From Myxococcus sp. RHSTA-1-4 (GTDB taxonomy: Bacteria; Myxococcota; Myxococcia; Myxococcales; Myxococcaceae): 64,000 bases of DNA. How positions within the stretch are numbered: the first letter of the stretch is position 1; each line of letters begins with the position of its first letter. Both the position numbers and the translations under genes were made by a program. Positions 30,052 to 52,762 of this stretch are shown one piece after another. Where the stretch lies: NCBI RefSeq assembly GCF_020037125.1, contig NZ_JAIQDG010000002.1:310001-374000 (forward strand), written 5' to 3'. The notes beneath the pieces are model-generated. The model worked only from the letters and a program-made list of their open reading frames with translations, was not told where the DNA came from and made no database searches.

Positions 30052-30226
30052 GGCTCGGGCCCCGGACGTCCGGTCGCCGCGTCCCGGGATGACGCCGCCG
30101 CGTGTCCGCGGAACGCGACCGGGGGGCGGAGCGTGGCTTTCGCGCACTTCTCGTGGGACGATGCCGGGGACGCGGCTCTGGCTCGGGGGTTGCTACCTGG
30201 GGGCCGCGAACCGAGGTCATCCCCAT

Positions 30227-30850
30227 ATGCCACTCAGGTACGAGGTGCGGGTGGGAGACTGCCTGTCGAGCATTGCCTTCGAGCATGGCTTCCACCCCGA
30301 CACGCTCTGGAACCATCCCGACAACGCGGCCCTGCGCCAGCAGCGCGACAACCCGAACGTGCTCGTCGCCGGGGACGTCGTCTGGATTCCCGACCTCCGG
30401 CCGAAGCAGGTCCCCGTCACCACCGGCCGTGTCCACCGCTTCGTCCGGCGCGGCGTGCCGGAGACGTTCCGGCTGACGCTGCGGGAGATGGGCAAGCCCC
30501 AGGCGGGGCTCTCCTACACGCTGGAGGTCGACGGGCGGGAAGTGGCGCGCGGCACGCTGGGCGAGGACGGCGTGCTGGAGTGCCGCATCCCTCCCAACGC
30601 CCGGAAGGGCATCCTCACGCTGGGAGGCAAGGTGCGCCATGAGCTCCAACTGGGGGCCATTGCTCCGGCGGGAACGGCCGACGGCGCCCGCGCGCGCCTG
30701 TGCGCCCTGGGGCTGCTGGAGCGCGAGGACGCGTCCGACGAGGCGCTGGCCGAGGCCCTGGAGGCGTTCCAGTTCGAACAGGGACTGGAGGCCCATGGCC
30801 GGCTGGACGCTCCCACCCAGTCCCGCCTGCAGGAGGTGTTCGGATGCTGA
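30227..30850 (+). CDS. LysM and peptidoglycan-binding-domain protein
   Basis: A 207-residue protein from ATG 30227 (GAGG upstream). Residues about 3-57 form a LysM-like domain (YEVRVGDCLSSIAFEHGFHPDTLW and LVAGDVVWIPDL). A beta domain (70-135) follows, then a helical peptidoglycan-binding (PGBD_1-like) domain with RARLCALGLLERED, EALEAFQFEQGLEAHGRLDAPTQ. No signal peptide. This architecture is often seen beside contractile-injection or toxin genes, where it acts as a tail or adaptor protein. Its stop overlaps the start of the large MBL gene by 7 bp, so the two are a coupled pair inserted in the STM401x region. Confidence 0.82.
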   Translation: MPLRYEVRVGDCLSSIAFEHGFHPDTLWNHPDNAALRQQRDNPNVLVAGDVVWIPDLRPKQVPVTTGRVHRFVRRGVPETFRLTLREMGKPQAGLSYTLEVDGREVARGTLGEDGVLECRIPPNARKGILTLGGKVRHELQLGAIAPAGTADGARARLCALGLLEREDASDEALAEALEAFQFEQGLEAHGRLDAPTQSRLQEVFGC

Positions 30851-33800: not shown

Positions 33801-34509
33801 TCCGGCGGCGGCGGCGGCGGCCATCCCCGTCGCCATGGGAACCATGCTCGGGCAGGTCGTGGCGCAGGCGGTCTGGTGGGTGTGGAACGGAGCGGGAATC
33901 GGAGGCCTGGCCGTGGGCGGCGGGGGCCCGGTGTTCGCTCCCGGCAACAACCTGCTCGCGCGGACGGCGGCCATGGCGGTGGGGCGCAATCTCGGGCATG
34001 CGGTTCCCGCCCTGGTGAACCTCCCGCCGGCGTTCGCCAACCTGCCACCGCAGCTCGCCATCCTCCTCCGCGCGACGGAGGCGGCCGTGGCGCAGCAGGG
34101 GCAGCCCCGCCACTTCGCGGGAGCGGCCAATGCCTCGGACCGGATTGCCTACTCCTATGGTATCGGCCCCGGCCCCGGGTTCGCCCACCCGCACGTGAAT
34201 GTCGCGGGCGTCGGGCACCCGGACCCCAAGGCGGCGGACAAGTACGCCGGTCACGGCTGGGGGGGCCGGATGAATACCTCGGTGAATGCGTGGCAGAGCG
34301 CGCAGCCGTACCCGGCACCGGCGCTGCTCGCCGCCCCCGCCGCGCCACTGGCCGGTGGCCACCTGGCCCTGGGCTGGGAGGACTTCTCGGGCATGGGTGG
34401 CTACGAGGGGCCGCTGCGGGGCACCGCGGCTGCTGGCGGAGGCGTGGCCGCCGCCAACGCGCTCCCCCGGCCGTGCCCGACGTGCGCGGGGCTGAACTTC
34501 GTGTGCTGA
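30844..34509 (+). CDS. Giant ComEC-type MBL-fold protein with Ala-rich insertions
   Basis: A 1221-residue protein; ATG 30844 is chosen because AGGAGG sits 7 nt upstream (ATG 30850 is an alternative). Residues 1-30 are basic; 35-350 form an unrecognised soluble region. A metallo-beta-lactamase fold of the ComEC type starts at LDIGQGNCSAL (365) and has LSHWDLDHYD (His418, Asp420, Asp422, His423), LLTGDANF (Asp725), ATHHGSN (His756, His757) and a terminal AYSYGIGPGPGFAHPH near 1100. Between these motifs lie two hydrophobic Ala/Gly/Val/Pro-rich insertions, about 505-690 and 780-1095. Known relatives hydrolyse phosphoesters, often of nucleic acids. The insertions may be membrane-active or a spacer. 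The C-terminus has CPTCAGLNFVC. Confidence 0.75.
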   Translation: MLMNEKRDRDTPDAPPAKAKRRKVRTARRAPNSLDLSPTTHYAFVAGVEGDDTTGYHLELQCVESTWMERLWRFFLSTSEGQRFLQLWDARDFDAAYPKLSRDDLLFSYETWCWFVLQVRDDGGDLKGAPVSVLRCFAEADSPFWREHGGKLRESDWFFVSLQPDEPASDTCCPGELCTLGWTAGQDVLDDVFLVALERIPDSTRGKQIPQAGLKALHFPQVHPDLLAKPDRAPEIGAGPGVARLDVTYEEASPVDTPDGSVQKSLSAWLEREVLSPVGRAVAGLVGKARDWLDSLVPGLPGPLAVAGACPGHGGAAWGERDWLRGPFAYIGSGVPGGAQAPNPMAEPAPAAAMPPLLQPFVGVLDIGQGNCSALYDSQGVPFAYFDFGLASGGTAWTMPPAPPAPCLCNHPLIILSHWDLDHYDLARNNHVAYQLRWLAPQQHMGTPDVRESIARLVTYGGQLSLYVSAAPSHIRFDWGWVEKCTGPWAVRNNSGLAAFVCVKDNGAVPAAAAGVAHPAPLVPVLPGAAAAAIAAVMPVGPGAFIAPALVTAALAWAGLQWGAITVARTAVNQVRANAAALGVASNPVTEAVVATVALGGTGVPVPALAVLGQAVVVAVTALGVAALPGAVLLNVIGQIPGFGVPLGGGPAFGPLLAAALAGLAPGLPPANLNNAVGATGGVHAYVLQAARAHQPPGPAPVIPAVMTGHAPFDPAERYVLLTGDANFNVVPSLGHNGVGGLPAAPPCVVGLMATHHGSNMVNGAAIHADTIPWAPGTQATRAASKASAAATGALGLGAAMNVVAVCAAAAAADELAAMPALPAAPPGAVPAAYLGGGLAGQAAAALAAAPAAANVGAMPGANVDVDWAALAVSAAQNIPGNDLANAWLGVTAVIFPPAGLGVPPAFFGANLPNIERVVPVVLAEALAAGFSRTQAVRTAAAAMAVISALPGQDAVNVARVARFAAASMIGGAGGAGAIHVAVLAGPAAAAAAIPVAMGTMLGQVVAQAVWWVWNGAGIGGLAVGGGGPVFAPGNNLLARTAAMAVGRNLGHAVPALVNLPPAFANLPPQLAILLRATEAAVAQQGQPRHFAGAANASDRIAYSYGIGPGPGFAHPHVNVAGVGHPDPKAADKYAGHGWGGRMNTSVNAWQSAQPYPAPALLAAPAAPLAGGHLALGWEDFSGMGGYEGPLRGTAAAGGGVAAANALPRPCPTCAGLNFVC

Positions 34510-34512
34510 AGC

Positions 34513-35646
34513 TCACGCCCCGCGCAGGGCCTCGCGAATCTCCCACTCGTACACGGTGAGCCCGTCGCGGCGCAGGTTGGGCAGCAGGTCGCCGAAGGCG
34601 TTGGCCTCCAGTACGCGGTGTCCCGTGAAGTACTCCTCGAACATCAGGTCGATGCCCACGTGCAGGCAGTCGTGCGCGCGGGCCACGGCGCGGCAGCTCT
34701 CCAGGGCCTCCTCCCACTCGTTCGCGGGCGCCGCCGCGCGCAGTTCCTCCAGGTCCCCGCGCCAGCCGCCCAGGTGCAGGTTGGTGACGGGGTGCCGGCT
34801 CTGCCGCACCACCGTGAAGGCCGGCTCGCCGCGGACCATCAGCATCCGGCAGTCGAAGTAGTCGCCGCCCAGCCGCGCCTTGGGGATGGAGCGCTCCACC
34901 TGCGAGCCCTCGGCCAGGAGGAACTCCAGCACCTCGTCCACCCGCGAGGGCTCGTCGATGCGGCGGACCTTCAGCGAGTTGTACCAGCCCGTCTCCGCCT
35001 GCTCGATGGTGGTGACCAGGGTGTCCCGGGCGCGCCCCCGCCGGTAGATGGCCAGGCACGACGCCGACGAGCCGCAGGACAGCTTCACGAACACCTCGCG
35101 GCAGTCGTGCGCCCGCATCCGCTCGCGCAGCGACTCCGCGTCCGTCACCCCGTCCAGCGGCTCGGGCACGGGCACGCCCAGGGCCGCGTACTTCCGGGAG
35201 GTGAGGCGCTTGTCGAAGAGCTCCGCGATGCTCGCGGGCGACTGGAGCACCCGCCAGCGCGGGTGCGCCGTGAAGATGGACTCCAGCTCCGCCAGCGCGC
35301 GCAGGAAGCCCAGGTGGTGCTGCCGGGGGAAGAGGATGCGCCCGTGGTCGTACTCCAGGGCGTCCACCTCCTCCGGTGACAGGCGCCCGCATTCCAGGGC
35401 CCGGGCCTCCGGGAACCCGCGCTTGAGCAGCGCCTTCTCCACCTCCCAGCTCTCACCCGCCGAGTCGATGCGGACCAGCGCCTCCGTGTCCGGCAGGTCC
35501 GCGAGGAGCCCCGGGTGGGCGAGGAAGTCCACCCAGGGCACCACCCGGGCGGGTGGCAGCCCCTGGTGGGCCAAGGCCTCCTGGAAGAGGGTGACGCGGC
35601 GGTTCTCCGCGTTGCCGATGAGGATGAAGGGAGGGGCCGCCGCCAT
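34513..35646 (-). CDS. STM4014-like ATP-grasp protein
   Basis: A 377-residue protein with ATP-grasp character: an N-terminal Rossmann-like part (FILIGNAENRRVTLFQEALAHQ), a linker, then REVFVKLSCGSSASCLAIYRR (ATP-binding Lys and loop), and near the C-terminus HVGIDLMFEEYFTGHRVLEANAFGDLLPN, where Asp, Glu and Asn match the magnesium ligands of ATP-grasp enzymes. Such enzymes join a carboxylate to an amine or thiol using ATP. The name comes from the Salmonella STM4011-STM4015 cluster; its members are found elsewhere in this window. The gene starts 6 bp after the stop of the WGR/LRR gene and ends 3 bp from the convergent MBL gene. Confidence 0.82.
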   Translation of the reverse strand: MAAAPPFILIGNAENRRVTLFQEALAHQGLPPARVVPWVDFLAHPGLLADLPDTEALVRIDSAGESWEVEKALLKRGFPEARALECGRLSPEEVDALEYDHGRILFPRQHHLGFLRALAELESIFTAHPRWRVLQSPASIAELFDKRLTSRKYAALGVPVPEPLDGVTDAESLRERMRAHDCREVFVKLSCGSSASCLAIYRRGRARDTLVTTIEQAETGWYNSLKVRRIDEPSRVDEVLEFLLAEGSQVERSIPKARLGGDYFDCRMLMVRGEPAFTVVRQSRHPVTNLHLGGWRGDLEELRAAAPANEWEEALESCRAVARAHDCLHVGIDLMFEEYFTGHRVLEANAFGDLLPNLRRDGLTVYEWEIREALRGA

Positions 35647-35652
35647 CCGGCG

Positions 35653-37005
35653 TTACTCGCCCACCGCCACGTAGCGGTGGTCGTCGTCCTCGTCGAAGTC
35701 GTGGCGGCGCTGGTGGCCGCGGGCCACGTCCGGGCACAGCTTCGCCAGCGACTTCGCGGCCTTGTCGCTGAGCAGGTTCTGGGTGACGTCCAGGTGCTTG
35801 AGGTGCTTGAAGGCCGCGGCGTTGGCGACCAGCACCTCCGCGCCCTTGTCCGTCAGGGTTCCCCGGGACAGGTCCAGCGTCTCGAGCTGCTTGAGCACCT
35901 TGGACTTCGGCAGCGCGTCGCACAGCGCGTCGGTGAACTCCGCGTTGCACAGCCCCAGGTGCTTCAGCTCCGGCAGACCCGTGGCGTCCAGGATGGGCTG
36001 GATGTGGCTCACCTCGCCCCCGGCGCCGTACTCCTCGGCGCCGAACCAGACCTCCAGCCGCTCCAGCTTCGGCCAGTGCGCGGCGGCAATGGACTTCACC
36101 GCCGGGCGGGGCAGGCCGCCCGTCTCCACGGTGAACTCACGCAGCTCCGGCAGGTCGACCTTCCCCAGGCTCACGTCGCCGCCGCGCAGGTGCAGCGAGC
36201 GGAGCTGGGGCAGGGCCTTGTACAGCGGCGCCACGTTGCCCACGTGGGTCCAGGAGATCTCCGTGTCGTCGGGGAACACGAAGTCTCCGATGAACAGTTT
36301 CCGGAGCGCCTTGGGGGCCGCCTTCGCGATGAGGCGGATGAGGTCGCCGTACTCGTTCTCCCCCTCGTTGTCCGCCAGGCCGAGGCTCAGCTCCTGGAGG
36401 AAGCGCGCGGACGGGTGGGCGAGGAGCATCGACAGCGTCTCGTCGATGGCGAACTCCACGTCCTGGCCATACTCCGCGGCCGCCACGCGGGCCTTCCGGA
36501 TGAAGCCCAGGTGCCACTCCACCGACAGCGTCGGGTCGCCGAGCATCGTCGAGAGGCGCGTGCCCAGCAGCAGGCCCTGGTGCTTCTTGAGGTGGGCGGC
36601 CACCTTCCGCTTGAGCGCGGTGGCCTCCGCGCCCTTCGCCTGGAGCAGCGCGTGCTGGAGGGCAATCAGCTCGCCGCGGGGGTCTCCCTGGGACTGGAGC
36701 CAGTCGCCATAGACGAGATAGCCGTCCGGCGCTTCCGGAGCGCGGAGGATGGCGGCCTCCAGCTCCTTGTTGGACTTCGGCGCGGGCCCGGTCTCCGTCG
36801 GCTTGACGCGGGCGTAGCCCTTCTTCTCCTTCTCCAGGACCTGCTTCTGGTACGCGTTGCGCGCTTCCCAGCTGCCGTCGAACTTCTGGGTCTTCTCCTG
36901 ACCGTCGGTGCCGATGCGCCCCCAGCGCGTGGTGAGGACGTTCTCCTGCCGGGTGATTTCCCAGAACTTGTTCGACGTGCCTTCCTTGAACTCGTAGCGC
37001 GGCAT
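35653..37005 (-). CDS. STM4015-like WGR/TIGR02996/leucine-rich protein, copy 1
   Basis: A 450-residue protein. Residues 1-75 form a WGR domain (MPRYEFKEGTSNKFWEIT, TTRWGRIGTDGQEKTQKF), a DNA/PARP-associated fold in eukaryotes. Residues about 79-125 hold a TIGR02996 motif (EAAILRAPEAPDGYLVYGDW and GDPRGELIALQ). From about 160 a leucine-rich region runs to the end (ALPQLRSLHLRGG, LPELREFTVETG, WPKLERLEVWFG, LETLDLSRGTLTDKGAEVL, LKHLDVTQNLLSDKAA). It likely works as a protein-binding scaffold. It is the second of two tandem homologues; the gap to the upstream copy is 33 bp. Confidence 0.88.
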   Translation of the reverse strand: MPRYEFKEGTSNKFWEITRQENVLTTRWGRIGTDGQEKTQKFDGSWEARNAYQKQVLEKEKKGYARVKPTETGPAPKSNKELEAAILRAPEAPDGYLVYGDWLQSQGDPRGELIALQHALLQAKGAEATALKRKVAAHLKKHQGLLLGTRLSTMLGDPTLSVEWHLGFIRKARVAAAEYGQDVEFAIDETLSMLLAHPSARFLQELSLGLADNEGENEYGDLIRLIAKAAPKALRKLFIGDFVFPDDTEISWTHVGNVAPLYKALPQLRSLHLRGGDVSLGKVDLPELREFTVETGGLPRPAVKSIAAAHWPKLERLEVWFGAEEYGAGGEVSHIQPILDATGLPELKHLGLCNAEFTDALCDALPKSKVLKQLETLDLSRGTLTDKGAEVLVANAAAFKHLKHLDVTQNLLSDKAAKSLAKLCPDVARGHQRRHDFDEDDDHRYVAVGE

Positions 37006-37038
37006 GGTGTGCCCCCCTCGGGCGTGGTGCGGGTGGTG

Positions 37039-38406
37039 CTACTCGCCCACGGCGGCGTAGCGGTAGTCCTCTTCGTAGTCGCGCTGGTTGCCCGCGCTCA
37101 CGCTGGGGCACAGCTTCGCCACCAGCCGCTCGCCCTCGCCGGTGAGCGTGTTCTCGGTGAGGTCGATGTGCTTGAGGTGGGCGAAGGCCGCCGCGTTCTC
37201 CGCGAGGATGCGAGCGCCCTCGTCGGACAGGATACCTCGGGACAGGTCCAGCCGCTCGAGCTGGGGGAGCACCTTCGCCTTCGGGAGCAGCTTGCAGAGC
37301 TCGTCGGTGAACTCCGAGTTGCACAGGCCCAGCGACTTGAGGTTGGGCAGGCCCTTGCCGTCGAGGATGGGCTGGATGTCCTCCACGCCGCCCTCGGCGC
37401 CGTAGTTGTCGTTGCCGAACCAGACCTCCAGCCGCTCCAGCTTCGGCCACTTCGCGGCGGCGATGGACTTCACGGCGGACAGGGGCAGGCCGCCGGTCTC
37501 CACGGTGAACTCGCGCAGCTCCGGCAGGTCGATGTTGCCCAGCTCCACGGAGCCGCCGCGCAGGCGCAGGGAGCGCAGGTGGGGGAGCAGCTTGTACAGC
37601 TCCGAGATGTCATGGATGTGGGACCAGGAGATCTCCGTGTCGTCCGGATACTCGAAGTCACCGATGAACAGGCTCTGGAGCGTCTTGGAGCCGCCCAGCT
37701 CCTGGAGCGCCTCCGTGAGGCCCGAGACGACGTCGCTGTAGTCGTTCTCGTCGTCGAAGTGCGCCATGCCGATGGTGAGCCCGCGGAGGAACTTCGCGGA
37801 CGGGTGGGCGAGCAGCTCCTTCACCAGCTCCGCCACGTCGCGGCCGGAGTCGTAGTCCTTCTGGCCCACGCGCGCGGAGCGGATGAAGCCCAGGTGCCAC
37901 TCCACCTTCAGCTCCTCCTCGTCCGCGGCGTCCGCGAGGTCTCCGAGCAGCGCGGCCTTGTGGCTCTTGAGGAACTTGTTGATCTGCTTCTTGAGGTTCG
38001 CGGCCTCGTCGCCGCTGGCCTGCATCGCGGCGTGCTGGAGGGCGATGAGCTCGCCGCGCGGGTCACCCTGGCGCTGCAGCCAGTCGCCGTAGACGAGGTA
38101 CGCGTCCACGTTGTCCGGGTTCGTGAGGATGGCGGCCTCCAGCTCCGGGTTGGACGCGGACTCGCCGGCCTCGCCTTCAGCCTCCTCGCCGGCCTCGCCG
38201 TCGCCCACCAGCTCGTAGCCCTTCTTCTCCTTCTCGCGGACGAGCTTCTCGTACTCCTTCTTCGCCTTGTCCGGGGAGTCGAAGGTCTGGGTCTTCTCCT
38301 GCCCGTCGGTGCCGATGCGGCCCCAGCGCGTGGTGAAGGTGGTGCCGGAGAGGGTGATCTCCCAGAACTTGCTGGAGCTGCCTTCCTTGAACTCGTACCG
38401 CGGCAT
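37039..38406 (-). CDS. STM4015-like WGR/TIGR02996/leucine-rich protein, copy 2
   Basis: A 455-residue paralogue of the next gene downstream, from ATG 38406. Same order: WGR (MPRYEFKEGSSSKFWEIT, TTRWGRIGTDGQEKTQ), an acidic linker with EAGEEAEGEAGES, TIGR02996 (AYLVYGDWLQRQGDPRGELIALQHAAM) and leucine-rich repeats (LPHLRSLRLRGGSVELG, WPKLERLEVWFGNDNYG, LERLDLSRGILSDEGARI). The two copies are clearly related at both DNA and protein level, so they arose by tandem duplication and may form a heterodimer. Upstream, 43 bp away on the same strand, is the putative vWA-like gene, so the run vWA-like, LRR, LRR, ATP-grasp may be one transcript. Confidence 0.88.
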   Translation of the reverse strand: MPRYEFKEGSSSKFWEITLSGTTFTTRWGRIGTDGQEKTQTFDSPDKAKKEYEKLVREKEKKGYELVGDGEAGEEAEGEAGESASNPELEAAILTNPDNVDAYLVYGDWLQRQGDPRGELIALQHAAMQASGDEAANLKKQINKFLKSHKAALLGDLADAADEEELKVEWHLGFIRSARVGQKDYDSGRDVAELVKELLAHPSAKFLRGLTIGMAHFDDENDYSDVVSGLTEALQELGGSKTLQSLFIGDFEYPDDTEISWSHIHDISELYKLLPHLRSLRLRGGSVELGNIDLPELREFTVETGGLPLSAVKSIAAAKWPKLERLEVWFGNDNYGAEGGVEDIQPILDGKGLPNLKSLGLCNSEFTDELCKLLPKAKVLPQLERLDLSRGILSDEGARILAENAAAFAHLKHIDLTENTLTGEGERLVAKLCPSVSAGNQRDYEEDYRYAAVGE

Positions 38407-38449: not shown

Positions 38450-39922
38450 CTAGAGAAGCCCCCGGGCAAGCTCAAGCGTCGCGCCAGTCCACGCCTCCCA
38501 GGGGCCGTCGGCGGCGGGCTCGGTGGCGGGGGCCGCCCTGTTTCCGAGCACGCGGACCCGGGGGCCCGGCCCGCTCAGGTCGAGGAGGTGCAGGCCTACC
38601 CGGGTATCCGGCTCCAGTGCGTCGTGCCCGCCATGACGGGCCGCGTCCAGGAGGAGCACGTCCACCCGGGCCCGCTTCGTGCCCGCGGCGGCCTCGGAGA
38701 GCACGGAGTCCAGGTCGGGGGCGGTGAGAACCTCCGCCGTGCCCCGGGCGCGCCACTCGCGCAGGAGCAGCTCGCACAGGCCGCGCTCCGCCTCCAGGGG
38801 GGAGAGGCCCTTTGCGTCCTGCACGAAGACCACCCGGAAGCGGAGGTCCTCGGCGGTCAGCCATGCGGACAGCCGGCGCACGAGGCACAGCACCAACCCC
38901 AGCGCGACGACGGCCCGCTGCCAGCGCACGCCCGCGTCCTTCACCCGCGCGTCCGCCAGGTCCGGCAGCAGGGCGAAGGTGATGACCCGCCGCCTGCGCA
39001 CCGCGAGGCTCTCATCGCGCGTGTAGTAGAGGAGCTCGCCCTCCACGTAGCGCACGTCGAACAAGTCCAGGGTGGGCTCGTCCTCCATGTAGACCAGCTC
39101 GGAGGTGACGAGGTTCTCCAGGCTGCCCACGTTGGACACGGAGGCGAAGCCTCCCTGCGGGAAGGCGGCGTCGTCTTCCATCGCGGTGGGCGTGGGGCCG
39201 GAGGAGACGGGACGCGCGCGGAGCTTCGGAGGCAGTGTGCGGGACAGCGCCTCGGCGGCCTCCACCGCCTGTTCCAGGGCCAGCCGCTGGGCCTTGCCCT
39301 GGAGGTGCTCCAGGTTCTCCAGCGTGAAGGCCTCCGCGTCACCCATCAGCGCCTGGGCGCGGCGGGCCGCGCCGGCCAACGCCTCGTAGCCCTCCGCCAG
39401 CCGCTCCAGCACGGCGTGGGCTCCTGGCTCTCGCAGGGCGCTGTAGCCGGCGTGCAGCAATTCGGTGGGAGGACGGTCCAGCACCCGCCGCGCCAGGGCC
39501 GGGCTCAGCGCCGTGCCGGCCGTGAAGCCGAGCCGTGTCAGGACTCGCGCTACGAGGAAGGCCACGCCCCTGGCGCGGAGCGGCTCGGGCAGGCGGGCCA
39601 GGGCGGAGGAGACGGCCTCCAGGTGCGGCTCCGCGGCCAGCCGTGCCAGCACGTGGTCGTCATACGCGCGCACGGCGGCGCGGAGCCGGGGCAGCGTGTC
39701 CGGGACGGGCAGGGTGGGGGAGAGCGGGACGCCGGAGACGAGCCGGCCGAGGTCGGAGACGAAGGCCGGTGGAGGCAGGTCCGGCGACTCCGCGAGCGTG
39801 GCCAGCAGCCAGGGCACGGCCGCCGTCAGCGCCTCGGACGTGGGGCCGTCCTGACGGGCAAGGCAGAGTCCGGCGCACAGCCAGCGCTCCGCATCCTGGG
39901 GTCCTCGCAGCTCCGCGCTCAT
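38450..39922 (-). CDS. Putative degenerate vWA-like protein
   Basis: A 490-residue soluble protein. The N-terminal 230 residues are helical, with Leu/Ala-rich repeats. From about residue 260 the pattern is RRRVITFALLPDLADARVKDAG, a long helix RWQRAVVALGLVLCLVRRLSAWL, and strand FRVVFVQDA, followed by another helix and strand VDVLLLDAARHGG. This looks like a von Willebrand factor A fold in which the metal-binding DxSxS is not kept, as in the vWA proteins of FtsH-vWA-MoxR ternary systems. That identification is inference from secondary structure and genome context (MoxR and FtsH genes nearby, same strand). If it is not a vWA domain, it is a protein of unknown fold. Confidence 0.6.
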   Translation of the reverse strand: MSAELRGPQDAERWLCAGLCLARQDGPTSEALTAAVPWLLATLAESPDLPPPAFVSDLGRLVSGVPLSPTLPVPDTLPRLRAAVRAYDDHVLARLAAEPHLEAVSSALARLPEPLRARGVAFLVARVLTRLGFTAGTALSPALARRVLDRPPTELLHAGYSALREPGAHAVLERLAEGYEALAGAARRAQALMGDAEAFTLENLEHLQGKAQRLALEQAVEAAEALSRTLPPKLRARPVSSGPTPTAMEDDAAFPQGGFASVSNVGSLENLVTSELVYMEDEPTLDLFDVRYVEGELLYYTRDESLAVRRRRVITFALLPDLADARVKDAGVRWQRAVVALGLVLCLVRRLSAWLTAEDLRFRVVFVQDAKGLSPLEAERGLCELLLREWRARGTAEVLTAPDLDSVLSEAAAGTKRARVDVLLLDAARHGGHDALEPDTRVGLHLLDLSGPGPRVRVLGNRAAPATEPAADGPWEAWTGATLELARGLL

Positions 39923-40011
39923 GGGTGCTCGTCACGAAGGCGGGGTGGGACGCGGGTCCGCACCCCGGAGTGAGCCAGAGCCTATCAGCCGCCCGTGGAC
40001 CCGCGCGCGCC

Positions 40012-40836
40012 CTACCGGGTGCTGGCGTGCAGGTAGACGGTGCGGCCGTTGAGCGGCTGCGGCGGCCGGTTGTTGGGGTTGAGGTGCGGCAGCCGCTGGA
40101 AGGAGGCGATTTCGGCGTCCGACATCTCGATGGGGTCCTTCATCACGTACCACTCGACACCCTCGGTGCACGGGGGCGTCGTCAGCGAGCCGTGGTACTG
40201 GAAGAAGGCCTTGTTCTTCGGCAGCAGCGCGGAGGCGTTGATGCTCGCGCCCTTGGGCTCGCTGTGGTCACCCTTGTTCCACGGCAGGTGGTGGAAGGCG
40301 TCGTCCAGGGCGCGGTTGACCGAGCCCGCCTTGATGAAGACTCCCACGACGAGGACGCCGCCGCTGGTGTTCTTGTGCACCAGGTGCAGCTCGAGCGGGA
40401 AGTGGACTCCGTCCTCGGTGTGCTCGCTGGGCGTGTGGAAGTGGAACTGCGCGAGCTGGTACTCCTTCTCGCCCACGCGCACGGTGCTCCCCGCGTCGTA
40501 CTCGAACTCCACGGTGTGGCCGTTGTTGACCATGCGCACGCGGCTGGGGCGGTAGTTGAAGGAGGGCGCCGGGTGGGTGTCGGGCGTGGTGTTGGCCGTC
40601 ACCAGCTCGACGGGCGACTCCTCCTTTCCGGTCGCGCAGGTGGTGGCGCCGGGCAGGTCTCCCCAGTGCGCCGGTCCGACGGCTTCGCCATAGCCCCAGT
40701 GCCCTCCGGTGTGGCTGGTGGCCTCGGGCGGGGGAGCGTGCGCCGGCTCGGAGGCCCAGGCAGCGGTGGAGCAGAGGAGGGAGAGCAGCAGCGCCCGGCG
40801 TACGCCGGGCAGGGACGGACGAGGGGGGAGGTGCAT
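40012..40836 (-). CDS. Alpha-type carbonic anhydrase, exported
   Basis: A 274-residue protein from ATG 40836. A signal peptide (1-29, ending AWA-SE) is followed by an alpha-class carbonic anhydrase domain. Zinc ligands are His132 and His134 (LAQFHFHTPSEH) and His151 (LELHLVHK); the gatekeeper Glu138 and YHGSLTTPPCTEGVEWYV near the end are also conserved. Cys67 and the Cys of TTPPC probably form the usual disulfide. It interconverts CO2 and bicarbonate in the periplasm. It lies between the vWA-like gene and the AraC-type regulator and is not obviously part of either system. Confidence 0.95.
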   Translation of the reverse strand: MHLPPRPSLPGVRRALLLSLLCSTAAWASEPAHAPPPEATSHTGGHWGYGEAVGPAHWGDLPGATTCATGKEESPVELVTANTTPDTHPAPSFNYRPSRVRMVNNGHTVEFEYDAGSTVRVGEKEYQLAQFHFHTPSEHTEDGVHFPLELHLVHKNTSGGVLVVGVFIKAGSVNRALDDAFHHLPWNKGDHSEPKGASINASALLPKNKAFFQYHGSLTTPPCTEGVEWYVMKDPIEMSDAEIASFQRLPHLNPNNRPPQPLNGRTVYLHASTR

Positions 40837-41097
40837 GTCGAGAGGCTCCTGGCCCGGCGCCATCCTGCCGGGCACCTGAGATTGCAGCGCGCCGCCGAGG
40901 GCGTGTCCAGCCGCCCTCCGGACAGATGGAACAGGCGGACTGCTGCCTTCATTTACGACTCGCGGGCGGGCTCGCCCTCGTGTCGCGCGGGGCCGAGCAA
41001 CGAACCTTTCCGAAGCCAACAGCTTTCCTTCGGACGAGGTGCGGACTCCTGCGACACGGCGGTGCTGGAGCTCTTGGCGGTGGACGTGAAGGGCTCG

Positions 41098-41952
41098 ATG
41101 GAGAAGATGCACGCGGAGGGTGTCGCGCGAGGAGAGCGCATGGAGATGGCCGAGCAGTCCCCCACACATGCGCTCCGGCCCTTTGTCGACCGCTTCTGGA
41201 GCATGCGCACCGCGCCCGGTGAGGCGGTGACCTTCGCCGAGCTTCTTCCCGGCACCGGCGCGGAGCTGATGGTGCACCTCGGTATTCCGCTCCAGCGCGC
41301 CGACGGCGCTTCGCTGCCCGCGAGCCACCTGCTGTGTCTGCGCGAGAGCACATTGCGGACGGCGGCGGGGGCGGGTGGGCTCGACATGTTCTGCGTGCGT
41401 TTCCGCGCGGGGGCGCTCCGCCACTTCATCGACGCGGAGGTCGGTGACGTCGTGGACGCCAACGCCTCCTTCGACGACCTCGCGGGGCCGCTGTCTCGCG
41501 TGCTGCGCGAGGGGCTCGCACAGCGGTACGCCTTCGTGGACCGGGTGGCGTTCGCCGAGCGCGTCCTCCAGGAACTGCGCGCGCGCTTCGTGCGTCCCGA
41601 CGTGCTCGTCGACCGAGCGCTTCACCGCATCTATGCCTCGGGTGGCGAGCTGCGCATCGGGGCGGTGGCACGCGAGCTGGGCGTGGTGCCGCGCCATCTC
41701 GCGCGCCGATTCCAGGCGACGGCCGGCGTCTCACCGAAGCGGTTCGCGCGGCTCGTGCGCTTCTCCAAGACGGTGCGTGCGCTCATTCTCGAGCGGGGGC
41801 ACGACATCGGGCGCGCCGCGGTGGAGCACGGCTACTTCGACCAGGCGCATTTCACGCACGAGTTCGTCGCGCTCGCGCGTCAGCCGCCGGGGGCGTTCCT
41901 GCGCGCCGTGACGAACAGGTCTCATTTCTACAAGCCGTCGCTCGCGCGCTGA
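41098..41952 (+). CDS. AraC-family transcriptional regulator
   Basis: A 284-residue regulator. ATG 41098 has AAGGG upstream; another ATG at 41140 is possible. Residues about 15-160 form an N-terminal sensor domain (HALRPFVDRFWSMRT, FAELLPGTGAELMVHLG, DMFCVRFRAGALRHFI), of the type with the P-x-V-x-x-F/W pattern found in DUF6597-like AraC regulators. Residues about 175-275 form two helix-turn-helix motifs (LRIGAVARELGVVPRHLARRFQATAGVSPKRFARLVRFSKTV and the second with IGRAAVEHGYFDQAHFTHEF). It is followed, 60 bp downstream, by a small ABM monooxygenase gene, its likely target. Confidence 0.92.
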   Translation: MEKMHAEGVARGERMEMAEQSPTHALRPFVDRFWSMRTAPGEAVTFAELLPGTGAELMVHLGIPLQRADGASLPASHLLCLRESTLRTAAGAGGLDMFCVRFRAGALRHFIDAEVGDVVDANASFDDLAGPLSRVLREGLAQRYAFVDRVAFAERVLQELRARFVRPDVLVDRALHRIYASGGELRIGAVARELGVVPRHLARRFQATAGVSPKRFARLVRFSKTVRALILERGHDIGRAAVEHGYFDQAHFTHEFVALARQPPGAFLRAVTNRSHFYKPSLAR

Positions 41953-42012
41953 CGCAGGTTCTCGTCAACGGCCGCGGCCCACGGACAGGACGCGTGCCAC
42001 AAGGAGAGCCAG

Positions 42013-42321
42013 ATGCGAGTTGCCATTGCCGTCCTCGAAGCCAGACCGGAGGCAGTCGAGACCGTCGAACACGCGCTTCGTGCGCTCGTGGAGCCCACGA
42101 GCCGGGAGGCCGGGGCGGTCACCTACGTCGTGCACCGGGACTCCAAGCGCAGCACCCGCTTCGTCGTCTACGAGCGCTACGTGGACCGCGACGCGCTCGA
42201 ACGTCACATGAGCGCCCCCTGGCTCACCGGGGCGGTCGGCGCGCTCCAGGCCCACCTCGCGTCGCCGCCCGCGGTCGAGTTCCTTGATGAGCTCGCCGCT
42301 TTCGACCGGCCAGCGAGGTAG
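42013..42321 (+). CDS. ABM-domain monooxygenase, putative quinol oxygenase
   Basis: A 102-residue ABM domain starting MRVAIAVLEARPEAVETVEHALRALVEP, preceded by AAGGAGAG. Conserved parts include EAGAVTYVVHRDSKRSTRFVVYERYVDRDALERHM, typical of YgiN-like enzymes and putative quinol monooxygenases. It is the only gene apparently controlled with the AraC regulator upstream. It is distinct from the other ABM gene at 17.6-17.9 kb. Confidence 0.92.
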   Translation: MRVAIAVLEARPEAVETVEHALRALVEPTSREAGAVTYVVHRDSKRSTRFVVYERYVDRDALERHMSAPWLTGAVGALQAHLASPPAVEFLDELAAFDRPAR

Positions 42322-42396
42322 GGGATCACGGCCCGCGGACCGGAGCGCCGCGGCCACCCGCCTGGAGGTACGAAGGCCCGCACCGGCTGAAGCCCG

Positions 42397-43443
42397 TTAT
42401 GTGAGGCCCAGCAGCCGGGGCACCTTCTCCTCCAGCAAATCAATCTCCTCGCGGCTCTCGCCCAGGTAGGAGAGGAGCTGGAGGTCCTGCCGCTCCACCG
42501 CGCCGCCATGGAAGATCCACGCACGCGTGCGCAGCAGCCGGTAGAGCTTCACCAGCTTGCGGTCGCTGATGAAGACGCCGTCCTCGCGCGTCAGCGTCTG
42601 CACCACCCGGCGGAACTCCCGCAGCAGCTCGTCCCGGAAGAAGAGGTCCCTGTCGCGCAGCTCGCGTCCGTCCGGGCCCGTCTCCCTCCGGCCCATCATC
42701 AGCGTCAGGTAGCGGTGCGCCTTCAGCACGTCATCCAGCGTGGCGTGCCCCTCCGCCCACGGCTTCTGGTTCAGCTCGCGGTACGTCTGCGACTCCAGGC
42801 CGGAGTCCAGCAGCTCCAGGAAGTAGCGGTCCTGCACCGGGCGGCATGCCGCCTTGAGGCAGAAGCGGTCCTTCAGCGCGCCCAGCTCCGCGTGCTCGGG
42901 CAGCTCGTTGGTGGCCGCGAAGAGCACCTTCAGCCGCACCGGCTGCGGCGCACCGTCCTGGTAGAACTTGCGCTCGTTGATGACCGTCAGGAGTGCGTTG
43001 AGGATGGCCGAGCTGGCCTTGAACACCTCATCCAGGAAGACGAGCCGCGCGGTGGGCAGCTTGCCGCCCTCGCGCCGGATGTAGCGGCCCTGGCGCAGCA
43101 GGTTGATGTCGATGGGGCCCAGCACCTCTGACGGCTCCGTGAAGCGCGTCAGCAGGTACTCGAAGTAGTCCTCATTCGGGATGCGCAGCGCGTCCCGGAA
43201 CTTGAGCACCAGGTCCGACTTCGCCGTGCCCGGGGGGCCCACCAGCAGCAGCGGCTCCTGCGCCACCGCCGCCACCGTCATCAGGTCCACCAGCGACTGC
43301 TTGCCCACGAAGTGCCGGCCCAGCGACAGCCGGAAGCGATTGAGCCGCTCGCGCAGGGCATGGGCCTCGCGGGAGAGCGCGTCCAACGACAGCTCGCTGA
43401 TGGGGTCGGCGGCGGATGCCTCGCGCCGGGGAAGACTGCTCAT
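42397..43443 (-). CDS. MoxR-family AAA+ ATPase (RavA-like)
   Basis: A 348-residue MoxR ATPase. An N-terminal helical segment is followed by FVGKQSLVDLM, Walker A GPPGTAKS (69-76), FTEPSEVLGPIDI, Walker B LVFLDE (134-139), a sensor-1 region with VLFAATNELPEHAELGALKDRFCLKA, and a C-terminal lid domain with DRKLVKLYRLLRTRAW. It shows the MoxR insertion in helix 2. MoxR ATPases remodel proteins with a vWA partner. Its start overlaps the stop of the upstream 1091-residue gene by 4 bp (ATGA), so it is the last gene of the large operon. RavA-like MoxR proteins with these unique neighbours belong to the predicted ternary conflict systems. Confidence 0.93.
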   Translation of the reverse strand: MSSLPRREASAADPISELSLDALSREAHALRERLNRFRLSLGRHFVGKQSLVDLMTVAAVAQEPLLLVGPPGTAKSDLVLKFRDALRIPNEDYFEYLLTRFTEPSEVLGPIDINLLRQGRYIRREGGKLPTARLVFLDEVFKASSAILNALLTVINERKFYQDGAPQPVRLKVLFAATNELPEHAELGALKDRFCLKAACRPVQDRYFLELLDSGLESQTYRELNQKPWAEGHATLDDVLKAHRYLTLMMGRRETGPDGRELRDRDLFFRDELLREFRRVVQTLTREDGVFISDRKLVKLYRLLRTRAWIFHGGAVERQDLQLLSYLGESREEIDLLEEKVPRLLGLT

Positions 43444-46400
43444 GTTGTGCGCTCCTCCAGCTCCCGATGGATGCGCCGTCGCACCAGGAATTCGTCCTCG
43501 TCCAGCCAGCTCCGCGCGCGCTCACCGGTGCCCTGGCCCACTTCCACGTGGCCCAGCACGAGCGCATCCGCAAGCTCCACCACGGAGAGGCAGAAGTGGC
43601 TGTTCGTGTTGTAGCTGTCCGTCACCGCCGGCAGGCCTTCCGACAGCCGCGCCAGCCCCGGCAGGGCCACCTCCACCGGCGCGTACGCCAGCGCTCCCGC
43701 GAGACTCCGCGTCAGCGCCAGCCGCTCCGGCAGGGCGCCCTTCGCCGCCGCCAGTGAGTCGAAGGCCCGGTCGAACACGGCGACCGCCTCGGGCGTCTGG
43801 CCCAGCATCGCCAGTCCCGCGGCCACACCAAGCTGCGCCGGCAGCGGCGTCTTGGGGCGGGTGAGGAGCCCCTGGGCCGCCTCCACCAACTCGGCGGCCT
43901 GGCGGGACAGGCCCACCCGGCGCAGGCCGCGCAGGCTCATCCCGAGCAGGCCCTGGGCCCACGCGGGGGACTCCGGCGGCAGCGCCACCAGCACCTTGCG
44001 CAGCCGCGCCGCCAGCGCCGTCGCGCGGTCCGCCCGGCCGAAGAGGGCCGCCAGCGTGAGCGCGTCGCCGAGCATCTGTCCCTGCGCCTCGCCGGGAAGC
44101 CCCTCCAGGGCCCCCACCAGGCTGTCCAGCAGGGGCAGCGCGCGAGCCGGGGAGAGACGGGGGAGCGTGTCCAGCAGCCCTCCCACGAGCCGCTGGCGCT
44201 CCGGCGCGGGCAGCTTCGGGGCCAGGGCCCGGGCGGTGAGCGCCTCCACCTCGGCGGCCACCTTGCCCGCATCCTTTATGTCCCGCAGCGCCGCGAACTC
44301 CTCGCCGCGCAAGTCCCGCGCGCCGCGCCCGAAGGCCCGCGCCGGGTCCAGCCGCTCGCTGGGCTCCAGCAGCGCGGAGGCTTGCCGCAGCCGGTCCACC
44401 TTGTACCGCTGGAAGGTGCTCAGCGCGTTCAGCTCCGCGGCGATGTCCGCCGGCAGCGGCGTCTCCGGCGGCAGGCCCTCCAGCGCCTGCGCCACGCGCG
44501 CCCCGTAGGCCCGCGAGAGAAAGCCGTGGATGGGCTCCTGCGCGTCGAGCGCTCCGGCCGCGGTGGCCACCAGCGCGCGCGCCCGGTCCGCCTGTCCCAG
44601 CCGCGCCAGCCCGCAGGCGAAGACGAAGTGGACATACGCCTGGGTGAGCGCGGGCGGAGCCTCGACGGAGGAGCGGCGGCGCGCCGTGCGCTCGAAGCGC
44701 TCCAGCAGCGCCTCCAGCTGCCCCACCAACCGGGGCGCGTGCGCCGCGTTCGTTCCCGCGCGGAGGAAGCGGGGCACGTCCCTCGCCAGCGACAGGCCGC
44801 GCTGGAGCATCCCCAGCAGCCGGTCTCCGGCCCGGGCCAGTCCGAGCGGGTCTCCTCCCGCCAGCCGGTCCAGCGAGGCCCGCGCCAGCCACAGGGAGCG
44901 CACGTCGAGCGCCGCGTCGTGCTTGTCCAACCAGCGCTGCACGGAGGGCACGTCCCCGGGCGCCGCCTCGCCGGGCACCAGCACCGCGCGCGCCAGGGCA
45001 CTGGCCAGCGCCCGCACGTCGTCGCCCGACGGCTCGGCGCGGGAGAGCAGCTCGGCGGCGGAGGCGGCGCCGTCCGCCTCGGCCCAGCGCGAGGCCAGCT
45101 CGGCGGCCTCGCTGCCCGTGGCTTCCCACAGCGCGCGTGTCCAGCACAGGCCCGCTTCGCGCCGGTGCCCGAGCTGCCCGTTCAGCTCCGCCATGCGCAC
45201 CCAGAGCTGCCGCCGCTCGTCCGAGTCCGCGGGCGCGTCGAGGGCGAGGAAGGACTTCTCCAGCTTCGTCAGCTCCTCCTCGGCGGCGCTGACCTGTGAG
45301 GGCGTGAGCGGCGCCAGCCGCGCCCTGGAGGACGGGGCCTGGGCGGCGCGAGTCGTGGTGACCTGGACCGGCCTGGACGGAGCGGCAGGCTCCGAGGGAG
45401 CGCTCCGGCGTGAGCGGCGGGACGTCCGCGAGTCCTTCTCGTCCTCCTCGTCGGACTTCGTGGGCCTGGACGAGAGGGTCATCCACTCGCCCGACGTGGC
45501 CTCGAAGGCGTCGAAGTCGAAGGTCGTCCCGCGCACCCACGGCGCCAGCGCGGAGGCGCCCGTGTCCACCACGTAGTCCACCCAGGTGTCGAGCGGGTGG
45601 AAGGCCGACTCGGGCAGGCGCTCGGCGCGGAAGGCTCCGCTGCCCGTGGGGTGCAGCCAGGTGACGGTGTCTCGCTCGGGGGCGAGCAGCGCGCGCAGCC
45701 TGTCCCTCCGCACGGGCGGCTCCAGCAGGCCGTCACAGGGCAGGAAGAGGTCCGCCAGTTGCGGCAGCGGTGCGTACGCCATGCCGGACAGGCCCAGCTC
45801 CGGCGGGCGCTCGCGGCCCGGTCTCGCGCGGAGGACGATGCACGGCGATTCCGGCGGCCCGGCCACCGCGAAGCGGAGCTGCGCCAGCAGTGCCTCCGGC
45901 AGCGTGTGGACGAGCGACTCCACCTGGGCCACGGCATTCTCGCGCAGCACCCAGAGGCTGGCCGGCTCCGTGCGCGCCGCGCGGGTGAGGCGCAGCGGCA
46001 CCGAGAGGCGCCCCGGTGCGGGCACGGGTTCCCAGTCCTCCGCCGGCTCGGGGAGCCGCAGGTCGGTGAGCTGGTACAGGTCCGTCCACGGCCCGTCGGA
46101 CGCGGTCAGCCAGGGCCCCTCGCCGGTGATGAGCAGCAGCGTCCGGGGCGCGGGCTGGAGCGTGCGCGCGAGCGGGTGCGTGTGCCCCAGCTCCACCCAG
46201 ACGGAGTGTTGCCCGGGCACCGCGGGCACGAAGGCGCGCAGTCCACCCGTGTGGTCCAGCGCGCCCGTGAGGGTGAAGTAGGGCGGCGCCATCGCGCGCA
46301 GCAGGGCCCGCTGTCTGGAGTCACCGCTGCCGTGGCTCGCGAAGCAGACCTCCTGCCGGTCGCAGCCCAGGCGCAGCATCTCGCCGGCCAGCGGGAGCAG

Positions 46401-46715
46401 CGCCTCCGGGGCCGCCGGAAGGAAGAGCACAGGTCCCGAGGGCGCGGCATCGACGGAGACTCGGCGCGTGGAGATGAGCTCCGCCCAGCACAGCACCGGA
46501 GCCGACTCGCCGGAGTCCGGCTTCGCCACCCTGACGCCGAAGGACGTCAGTTGCTGGAGCGCGGCCTTGCCCGGAGACACCTCCGGGGTGACGTGGAGCG
46601 CACCCTCCGCGGTCCGGCGGTAGCGCGCCGGCGCGGCCTGCACTTCGGAAGGGACGAGGCCGGAGGTGAGCGCGAGCTGGAGCGCTTCCTCGCTGGGGAA
46701 GACGAGCGTGGGCAT
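43440..46715 (-). CDS. Large unique protein of ternary system (bpX/X-domain-like)
   Basis: A 1091-residue protein starting at ATG 46715 (GTG 46718 just before; GAGGG lies upstream). Residues about 1-110 form a domain starting PTLVFPSEEALQLALTSGLVPSEV; 110-400 a mixed region with GHTHPLARTLQPAPRTLLLITGEG; 400-450 an acidic/basic low-complexity linker (SDEEDEKDSRTSRRSRRS); and 460-1085 a long run of helical repeats (LTKLEKSFLALDAPADSDERRQLW, AAELLSRAEPSGDDVRALA and many more) like an alpha-solenoid. No enzyme motif was seen. In MoxR-vWA and FtsH ternary systems, unique X-type proteins lie next to the ATPase as here. Its start codon region overlaps nothing, and the LysM gene lies 167 bp upstream. 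Confidence 0.75.
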   Translation of the reverse strand: MPTLVFPSEEALQLALTSGLVPSEVQAAPARYRRTAEGALHVTPEVSPGKAALQQLTSFGVRVAKPDSGESAPVLCWAELISTRRVSVDAAPSGPVLFLPAAPEALLPLAGEMLRLGCDRQEVCFASHGSGDSRQRALLRAMAPPYFTLTGALDHTGGLRAFVPAVPGQHSVWVELGHTHPLARTLQPAPRTLLLITGEGPWLTASDGPWTDLYQLTDLRLPEPAEDWEPVPAPGRLSVPLRLTRAARTEPASLWVLRENAVAQVESLVHTLPEALLAQLRFAVAGPPESPCIVLRARPGRERPPELGLSGMAYAPLPQLADLFLPCDGLLEPPVRRDRLRALLAPERDTVTWLHPTGSGAFRAERLPESAFHPLDTWVDYVVDTGASALAPWVRGTTFDFDAFEATSGEWMTLSSRPTKSDEEDEKDSRTSRRSRRSAPSEPAAPSRPVQVTTTRAAQAPSSRARLAPLTPSQVSAAEEELTKLEKSFLALDAPADSDERRQLWVRMAELNGQLGHRREAGLCWTRALWEATGSEAAELASRWAEADGAASAAELLSRAEPSGDDVRALASALARAVLVPGEAAPGDVPSVQRWLDKHDAALDVRSLWLARASLDRLAGGDPLGLARAGDRLLGMLQRGLSLARDVPRFLRAGTNAAHAPRLVGQLEALLERFERTARRRSSVEAPPALTQAYVHFVFACGLARLGQADRARALVATAAGALDAQEPIHGFLSRAYGARVAQALEGLPPETPLPADIAAELNALSTFQRYKVDRLRQASALLEPSERLDPARAFGRGARDLRGEEFAALRDIKDAGKVAAEVEALTARALAPKLPAPERQRLVGGLLDTLPRLSPARALPLLDSLVGALEGLPGEAQGQMLGDALTLAALFGRADRATALAARLRKVLVALPPESPAWAQGLLGMSLRGLRRVGLSRQAAELVEAAQGLLTRPKTPLPAQLGVAAGLAMLGQTPEAVAVFDRAFDSLAAAKGALPERLALTRSLAGALAYAPVEVALPGLARLSEGLPAVTDSYNTNSHFCLSVVELADALVLGHVEVGQGTGERARSWLDEDEFLVRRRIHRELEERTT

Positions 46716-46881
46716 CACCAGACGCCCTCGCGGGGCGTCCGACTCCCTGTCCTGGGCAGACCCATGGCCGGAGCATAGGGCAGGAGCACGGCGAGGAGCA
46801 GAGGGACCTCGCCGCCAGACATGCCGCCCGCTCGTGCTCCGCCCGGGCCGGGGGCGGCGGTGTGCCGCCTCGCGGCGGGCG

Positions 46882-47673
46882 CTACATCGTCGGCATGAAG
46901 ATCTTCAGCCCGGAGCGGCCTCCCGCGCCGAGCGTGTTGCGCTCGATGAAGTCGCTCACGGACGAGCGGCCGTCGCCGGTGGTGATGGCGGTGTGGCCGT
47001 AGATGCTGCCCAGCCGCGTCGAGGTCTTCTCCCAGGTGAGGACGAGGCCCGGAATCTTCAGCGCCTCCTCGAGCGACATGTTGACCTGCTTGAACTTGTC
47101 GCGCGGCAGGTTGTTGTCGATCTGGTTCCCGTTGCCCCAGACCTTGAAGCCGAAGGCGTTCTGGATGGCCCTGCTGACGCCGGTGGCGCACAGGCCCTGG
47201 CTGGTGTACCCGCCCATGCCCAGCGCGGCCGCCCGGCCCGCGTTCGCGAGCTTGAGCATCGCGGGCGTTGCCTTGCCCGGCTTGCCGGCGCCCTGGCTGC
47301 CCTCGGTCTTCCCGCCGCCCTGGGGAGGAGCCTGGGTGCCGCCTCGCCCCGGGATGCGCAGGGTGGTGCCCGCGTGGATGAGGTTCGGGTTGGAGATGTT
47401 GTTGGCGCGCGCCAGCTCCGAGACGGTGGTCTTGAAGCGCGCGGCGATGCCCGAGAGGGTGTCGCCGGGGCGGATGCGGTAGGTGGACGCGGCGCCGCCG
47501 CTCTTCGCGGGCTCGAAGCTGTCGCCCCGTCCCGGGACGCGCAGGGTGGCGCCCGCGCGGATGAGGTTCGGGTTGGAGATGTTGTTGGCGCGCGCCAGCT
47601 CCGAGACGGTGGTCTTGAAGCGCGTGGCGAGGGCGGAGAGGGTGTCGCCGGGGCGGATGCGGTAGGTGGACAT
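46882..47673 (-). CDS. Double-LysM protein with papain-like cell-wall domain
   Basis: A 263-residue protein from ATG 47673. It begins MSTYRIRPGDTLSALATRFKTT, a LysM domain, then a second, nearly identical LysM (residues about 62-112). A Gly/Pro linker follows (115-135). The C-terminal domain has QGLCATGVSRAIQNAF, where the Cys could be a nucleophile, and GSIYGHTAITTGDG with a possible catalytic His, reminiscent of CHAP/NlpC-P60 amidases. No signal peptide. It sits inside the operon that otherwise encodes the FtsH-MoxR system, so it may be a passenger or an effector acting on peptidoglycan. Confidence 0.8.
   Translation of the reverse strand: MSTYRIRPGDTLSALATRFKTTVSELARANNISNPNLIRAGATLRVPGRGDSFEPAKSGGAASTYRIRPGDTLSGIAARFKTTVSELARANNISNPNLIHAGTTLRIPGRGGTQAPPQGGGKTEGSQGAGKPGKATPAMLKLANAGRAAALGMGGYTSQGLCATGVSRAIQNAFGFKVWGNGNQIDNNLPRDKFKQVNMSLEEALKIPGLVLTWEKTSTRLGSIYGHTAITTGDGRSSVSDFIERNTLGAGGRSGLKIFMPTM
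47351..47670 (-). repeat. Direct repeat encoding the two LysM domains
   Basis: Bases 47351-47487 and 47534-47670 are nearly identical, offset by 183 bp (61 codons). They encode the two LysM domains. The high DNA identity suggests recent duplication or gene conversion. Confidence 0.8.
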
Positions 47674-47754
47674 GGGCGGTTCCTGACACCATTGTCGGGG
47701 CAGCCCTTGCCGAGTTGCGTAGAGCGCTCTCGATTTCTCGGATTTCACTCCGCA

Positions 47755-48021
47755 TCAGGCTTTCTGGCCCACCTTTCCGGAAGTCTCCTCGGCCGAGGAC
47801 GTGGGCTCCGCGACCTGCCCGGCCGGGGTGTCGCGCTGGACGATGACGCGGCCCACCTCGGACGCCTTCAGCGTGCCGCCGGCGATGAGCTTGTCCACGA
47901 GGCGGCGGTGCTCCTCCTCGTGCTCCATGGGGAGCGCGTCCGAGTCGCTCTCGTACTGGATGATGACGTCCTTGCGGCCCGTCGCGGGGTCCACCTGGAG
48001 GCGGAGGATGAGGCTAGCCAA
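47755..48021 (-). CDS. Small X-protein of ternary system
   Basis: An 88-residue acidic protein that begins MASLILRLQVDPATGRKDVIIQYESDSDALPMEHEEEHRRLVDKL, with a beta-hairpin followed by helices and an acidic tail. It overlaps the end of the FtsH gene by 8 bp. I do not recognise a family beyond its position as one of the small unique proteins that accompany FtsH-vWA-MoxR systems. It may be an adaptor for the FtsH-like protease. Confidence 0.7.
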   Translation of the reverse strand: MASLILRLQVDPATGRKDVIIQYESDSDALPMEHEEEHRRLVDKLIAGGTLKASEVGRVIVQRDTPAGQVAEPTSSAEETSGKVGQKA

Positions 48022-52384: not shown

Positions 52385-52762
52385 GGAACCCCCGCAGCAT
52401 GCCAGGAGCGATGCGGTCCGGGGAGTGGGCCCTTGCTCCCCTGGCCACCAGGCTAGCTCCTGGCGTCCCGGCTCCGCCGCCGCGAACCCGCACGGACGGG
52501 TTCGCTCGTCCTCGGGGCCCTGGGATGGGACGCGGCACGTTAGGCGTTCGCACATAGAGCCATGTGTTCCTCCGCCATCGCCACATCTCTGAGTCGTCAT
52601 GGGCTCTCGAGGTCCGGGCGACAGGTGTGCATCGAGGCCGCGGCCTTTCTTGGAGACCGCGCCCACCGCTGAGTCGCGGGCGCGTCCGCCATCCACTCAT
52701 GGCCCGTGAAGGCGCGGGCACGAGCATTTCCACAACCCCATCACCCGGAAAGGAGCAGGTCC
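52385..52762. other. Divergent intergenic region
   Basis: About 378 bp between the radical SAM gene (minus) and the M48 peptidase gene (plus). It should carry the promoter of the ternary-system operon and that of the peptidase. AAGGAG at about 52749-52754 is the peptidase ribosome-binding site. The rest shows no clear motif, palindrome or RNA gene. Confidence 0.5.

Follow-up and report, generated by a model that had tools for sequence, protein, structure and literature searches.

The divergent ivWA of an FtsH ternary system, probably split from its ancestral MoxR partner by an insertion in Myxococcus sp. RHSTA-1-4

In a 64,000-nt stretch of Myxococcus sp. RHSTA-1-4 (contig NZ_JAIQDG010000002.1, 310,001-374,000; hereafter the window, to which coordinates refer), a gene for a MoxR AAA+ ATPase raises the question of which von Willebrand factor A (vWA) protein is its partner, given that the nearest candidate, encoding a 490-residue protein on the same strand, is parted from it by three genes. 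The preliminary description had taken these three to encode a carbonic anhydrase, an AraC regulator and an ABM protein, identities that Pfam bears out (Table 1), and had explained the split either by insertion into an operon or by recruitment of the vWA gene to the WGR/leucine-rich repeat (LRR) genes downstream. Taken together, our profile, modelling and gene-order comparisons suggest that the 490-residue protein is the divergent vWA subunit (ivWA) of a simple-type FtsH ternary system, that it is the ancestral operon partner of this MoxR, and that the pair was split by insertion of a carbonic anhydrase-AraC-ABM segment, a reading that we hold with a probability of roughly 0.87. That MoxR, ivWA and the genes upstream together form one known system had gone unremarked in the preliminary description.

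The identification of the candidate as a vWA protein comes from two sources. In Pfam, residues 10-230 match ivWA-helical_N (PF19996, 4.7e-19) and residues 255-430 match ivWA (PF19997, 9.3e-31, 107 bits against a cut-off of 35), the family that represents the vWA domain of FtsH ternary systems and that is present in 47 of 145 genomes of the order, with one copy per genome. The protein consists of an all-helical N-terminal domain followed by a divergent vWA domain at residues ~285-490, and the AlphaFold2 model of the whole protein, built from 25 relatives (pLDDT 80), shows helices over residues 8-227 and then a C-terminal alpha/beta domain. The top VIA-align match of this model is TFIIH p44/Ssl1 (Z 9.4, root-mean-square deviation 3.5 A over 135 residues), with the Ku and collagen VI N2 vWA domains also ranking high, and the metal ion-dependent adhesion site (MIDAS) domains of Rea1 and MDN1 lower. 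Moreover, for an AlphaFold2 model of the vWA domain only, built from 41 sequences (pLDDT 89, pTM 0.84), vWA domains, including Rpn10 and NorD in complex with NorQ, fill most of the top 50 VIA-align rows, so that the proposed fold was recovered in both models.

Several observations weigh against this assignment. Malonyl-CoA reductase and some nucleases are also found among the VIA-align matches of the domain, a Z of 8-9 is close to what common Rossmann-like arrangements attain and is weak when taken alone, and a profile search of PDB sequences gave no match. Foldseek alone returned zero matches at E<=0.001 for the ivWA models, and we therefore base the fold call on Pfam together with VIA-align Z scores of 8-9. 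The best Foldseek rows for the domain, flap nucleases and a glycogen synthase domain (E >= 2e-3), along with the incomplete metal site, would fit a protein with another Rossmann-like fold that only a chance gene order pairs with MoxR. However, the curated Pfam family, the predominance of vWA domains among the VIA-align rows and a MoxR gene order that is conserved across the phylum make such a coincidence very improbable, and we find the modelled vWA fold convincing when the Pfam family and the structural matches are considered together.

The metal site of this predicted vWA domain is degenerate, as had been suspected. The strand-1 aspartate is missing from the window protein (FALLPDLADAR) and the later-strand aspartate is kept (LLLDA). 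No D-x-S follows strand 1 in Myxococcus ivWA proteins (FVLPPSL, FALLPDL), which thus lack a canonical MIDAS, a motif made up of DxSxS behind strand 1 and a conserved aspartate behind strand 4; in several other genera the D-x-S is kept and the later aspartate is mostly missing, and the losses within this region of the gene (38450-39079) are in this sense complementary. Loss of metal-site aspartates in divergent vWA domains of this class was noted by Kaur et al. 2020 (PMC7159879). The ivWA reading frame is intact in the window, and its product is 83-88% identical to the nearest relatives.

Judged by its genes, the surrounding operon is a predicted FtsH ternary system of the simple type, in which the helical domain is fused to the vWA domain. 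This is subsystem 3 of Kaur et al. 2020 (PMC7159879), with a predicted role in biological conflict, such as that with viruses, and the window shares with it a GXXXTAKS MoxR, FtsH with an active AAA+ domain, a vWA protein with a large helical N-terminal domain and without a metal-site aspartate, a standalone radical SAM enzyme, and fvmX proteins, the fvmX7, fvmX5, fvmX6 and fvmX3-analog profiles all scoring above cut-off. It differs in that MoxR and ivWA are parted by three inserted genes, in the LysM protein between the fvmX3 analog and fvmX7, and in being contiguous with an STM4011-STM4015 set. Other observations are less clear-cut. No conserved small gene was found upstream of the radical SAM gene by tblastx, and we thus claim no peptide effector; no NEFF1 gene was identified, although NEFF1 was not searched by profile. 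This MoxR is not alone in the genome, where the bpMoxR profile has 12 matches, 9 of them above cut-off, so that its pairing with ivWA is drawn from gene order and not from uniqueness. PADLOC called no system and gave no hit for ivWA, fvmX or the radical SAM protein, and its IetA/TRIP13 models match FtsH through the AAA domain only. The FtsH of such systems has an inactive N-terminal AAA+ domain, and for residues 1-260 of the window FtsH Pfam reported no AAA stretch. The open reading frame (ORF) of the radical SAM gene runs to 52696, and its start at ~52400 was placed from relatives, in which ~200 aa are conserved. An ORF at 46715-47755 (-) was dropped because it only shadows the LysM gene in another frame, and two ORFs at 52697-53167 and 53415-54956 (-), which have no Pfam match, were not used. 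Similar to RavA-ViaA, NorQ-NorD and Rea1, in which a MoxR-type AAA+ works with a vWA/MIDAS partner, the window pairs an AAA+ motor with a putative vWA adaptor, whose structural matches include the vWA domains of NorD and Rea1; those systems, however, lie outside FtsH/fvm operons, and the window ivWA differs from them in lacking a canonical MIDAS.

Table 1. Features of the window and inserts at the MoxR/ivWA junction of relatives (L-numbers label the loci of relatives)
Feature	Position	Strand	Evidence or remarks
STM4013 family hydrolase	26947-27762	+	NF038075 2.5e-132
STM4012 family radical SAM	27650-29164	+	NF006067 3e-183
STM4011 family radical SAM	29146-30051	+	NF038073 4.1e-119
STM4014 family protein	34513-35646	-	NF038074 1.8e-117
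Second WGR + LRR, STM4015-like	35653-37005	-	PF05406 2.7e-16; NF038076 239 bits
WGR + TIGR02996 + LRR, STM4015-like	37039-38406	-	PF05406 2.9e-21; NF038076 226 bits; 43 bp after ivWA
ivWA, predicted vWA component of FtsH ternary system	38450-39922	-	490 aa, ATG start
Putative inserted segment splitting MoxR and ivWA	39990-42396, limits approximate		2474-bp gap
Exported alpha-type carbonic anhydrase	40012-40836	-	PF00194 1.6e-47
AraC-family regulator, divergent from carbonic anhydrase	about 41098-41952	+	HTH_18 1.3e-15
ABM-domain monooxygenase-like protein, convergent with MoxR	42013-42321	+	PF03992 3.5e-15
MoxR AAA+ ATPase	42397-43443	-	PF20030 bpMoxR 9.4e-60; P-loop GPPGTAKS at residue 69
fvmX7	43440-46718	-	PF20005 6.6e-76; 4-bp overlap with MoxR
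LysM x2 protein, weak C-terminal CHAP	46882-47640	-	LysM 1.8e-30, CHAP 1e-4
fvmX3-analog small protein	47755-48020, start approximate	-	PF20002 6.2e-29
FtsH-type AAA+ / M41 protease	48014-50131	-	PF00004 2.8e-39, PF01434 5.7e-34; GPPGTGKT, HEAGH
fvmX5	50128-50820	-	PF20003 1.2e-50
fvmX6	50691-51776	-	PF20004 3.6e-71
NrdG-like standalone radical SAM, first gene of operon	51773-52400	-	PF13353 4.4e-33
Insert at MoxR/ivWA	L038/L041		Exported protein with repeated WRTDGTEAGT-like motifs
Insert at MoxR/ivWA	L042		Methyltransferase
Insert at MoxR/ivWA	L048, 8522-11328		Low GC (0.51), one 903-aa P-loop ORF
Insert at MoxR/ivWA	L055-L057		152-aa protein gene
Insert at MoxR/ivWA	L033		About 220 bp, non-coding

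The gene order of relatives shows what the junction looked like before it was opened. We compared loci up to 20 kb long, using Myxococcus in a sense that takes in Pyxidicoccus, with g7 as its sister genus, and giving overlaps between genes as negative spacings. The order radical SAM-fvmX6-fvmX5-FtsH-fvmX3 analog-fvmX7-MoxR-ivWA-WGR/LRR-STM4014 is constant across Myxococcus and g7, and the core from radical SAM to ivWA is also found in Nannocystis and other distant genomes, where ivWA identity is ~28-39%. Within this order the radical SAM/fvmX6 and fvmX5/FtsH spacings are -4 bp, fvmX7/MoxR is mostly -4 to -10 bp and ivWA/WGR 24-50 bp, and MoxR and ivWA are -4 bp apart in g7, -16 bp in the outgroup L040 and 7-76 bp in the insert-free Myxococcus loci. 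In total, 18/30 other loci have a tight MoxR/ivWA junction (-16 to 76 bp), and in 12/30 it spans 255 bp or more; the window has 2474 bp where L051/L050 have 7 bp, and in Myxococcus xanthus (L067) the two genes are uninterrupted and ~10 bp apart. The expectation that this MoxR has a vWA partner is therefore borne out by relatives, since ivWA adjoins or overlaps MoxR in the outgroups and in most Myxococcus genomes. With a junction that is tight in outgroups and a core order that reaches as far as Nannocystis, the tree places adjacency as ancestral and the state of the window as derived. One record titled Comamonas sp. KCTC 72670 also carries a Myxococcus-type operon (MoxR 93% and ivWA 74% identical), and for this reason is probably mislabelled.

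The tight junction in most relatives, together with an AraC gene that has no ortholog in the 26 congeneric genomes (best match ~37%), leads us to conclude from sequence comparison that a lineage-specific insertion broke the operon between MoxR and the ivWA leader, as one of the two earlier explanations had it. Homologs of the carbonic anhydrase, 56-69% identical, sit elsewhere in other Myxococcus genomes, and third-position GC is 0.87 in AraC and 0.85 in ABM versus 0.92-0.97 in ivWA, MoxR and FtsH. The AraC and ABM genes lie on the strand opposite to the operon, and the carbonic anhydrase on the operon strand. Directly upstream of ivWA, ~70 bp resemble the leader of L056 (78% over 68 bp) and, less so, those of L055 and L057, from which it appears that the ivWA start region was kept. 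A scan of the insert for sigma-70 promoters and terminators found none, a result that is only weakly informative for a high-GC myxobacterium. As L055-L057 carry a different insert at this point, either a single opening of the junction followed by refilling or two separate hits may lie behind this state, and since the group of L055-L057 also includes L051, with its 7 bp, either a single loss or two gains would be needed.

In fact at least five other inserts, all different in content, occupy the MoxR/ivWA junction among Myxococcus relatives (Table 1), and in Archangium-like loci 5-7 kb there hold what look like SDR/SCP2 and thiolase metabolic genes. The GC of the L048 insert is far below what is usual in this genus, and its 903-aa protein, hydrophobic in stretches near the N terminus and with a GTLGSGKT P-loop, by eye resembles KAP NTPases. 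Elsewhere in the core only the fvmX3 analog/fvmX7 junction is open, with two inserts: the LysM protein of the window, which widens the gap to 1295 bp versus 252-263 bp in relatives and is absent from the relatives examined, and a 370-aa exported protein in L056 that looks pectinacetylesterase-like by eye; no other core junction has an insert, including all those that overlap. This concentration might suggest that the MoxR/ivWA junction is a preferred loading site for effector-like cargo, of which the carbonic anhydrase, AraC and ABM genes would be one load. However, no theme unites the inserts, which lie on either strand and in part carry metabolic genes, and at most other junctions the genes overlap by 4-10 bp, so that selection for translational coupling suffices to explain the bias, and we consider a loading site unlikely. 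The simplest account is that inserts are not tolerated where genes overlap and are translationally coupled, and that the MoxR/ivWA junction is open to them because in Myxococcus the two genes there no longer overlap.

The second earlier explanation, that ivWA changed its allegiance from MoxR to the downstream WGR/LRR genes, draws on a linkage that is real. In Myxococcus and its sister genus, ivWA keeps a closer and steadier distance to WGR than to MoxR, and sets of STM4011-STM4015 genes adjoin ivWA not only in these genera but also in at least two distant metagenome-assembled genomes, L095 and L098, in two different arrangements and with STM4014/WGR relatives identified there by tblastn. As an explanation of the split, however, recruitment fares poorly: in close relatives ivWA is tight to its MoxR and WGR neighbours simultaneously, adjacency to MoxR extends to Nannocystis, in which ivWA was not seen to be followed by a WGR gene, and 22 genomes of the family have STM4014 but no ivWA, with the two on different contigs in 8 more that have both. 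We consider a changed allegiance quite unlikely, and the last observation indicates that STM4011-STM4015 is a module separate from the FtsH ternary system.

This module spans 26947-38406 of the window, directly beside the FtsH ternary operon, and as in the set defined by NCBIfam it comprises two radical SAM proteins, a hydrolase, an STM4014 protein, which we take to be ATP-grasp-like, and LRR proteins. The STM4011, STM4012, STM4013 and STM4014 members score above their NCBIfam cut-offs; both LRR proteins have WGR at the N terminus and fall below the 275-bit cut-off of NF038076 (STM4015), and the window differs from the NCBIfam set in this respect and in its position next to ivWA. Among Myxococcus-group genomes one to four WGR/LRR genes lie between ivWA and STM4014, which suggests repeated duplication or loss. 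STM4011 is parted from STM4014 by a 4.4-kb segment (30052-34512), these genes being tens of bases apart in several relatives; the segment holds a 1269-aa + strand ORF, alanine-rich and without a Pfam match, with a metallo-beta-lactamase-like HWDLDH motif seen by eye. A literature search on STM4012, STM4014 and STM4015 returned almost nothing beyond the bare naming of STM4015, and the terms WGR and ATP-grasp gave no hit in the main text of Kaur et al. 2020 (PMC7159879). It is a tentative and rather doubtful possibility that the two form one larger functional system, in which three radical SAM proteins, STM4014, the hydrolase and the WGR-LRR proteins would supply or recognise a modified substrate handled by MoxR-ivWA-FtsH; if so, the inserts at the MoxR/ivWA junction would be passengers.

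We regard the membership, vWA fold, ancestral adjacency and insertion of our preferred reading, that of a split FtsH ternary system, as borne out by the comparisons above, and its mechanism as modelled on MoxR-vWA systems in general. In a complex that would also contain FtsH and the fvmX proteins, MoxR would be the AAA+ motor and remodel the substrates that ivWA presents to it, ivWA would be a substrate adaptor that no longer uses the standard metal-dependent MIDAS contact, and the radical SAM enzyme would modify a substrate of the system. The insert probably altered transcription only and not protein function. With the carbonic anhydrase gene now ahead of it on the same strand, ivWA may no longer depend on the operon promoter alone: its transcription may start in its own leader or between the carbonic anhydrase and AraC genes.

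The FtsH ternary system itself is known and membership in its family is ordinary; what is new is the insertion into the operon and the recurrent coupling to STM4011-STM4015. Our analysis identifies the probable vWA partner of this MoxR and places both in a described, apparently experimentally uncharacterised, predicted conflict system, and the uninterrupted operon of M. xanthus makes its function accessible in a laboratory strain. The interrupted junction would offer a natural test of whether MoxR and ivWA need to be co-transcribed, and the recurrent neighbourhood with ivWA provides a first context for the STM4011-STM4015 set, for which we found nearly no literature.

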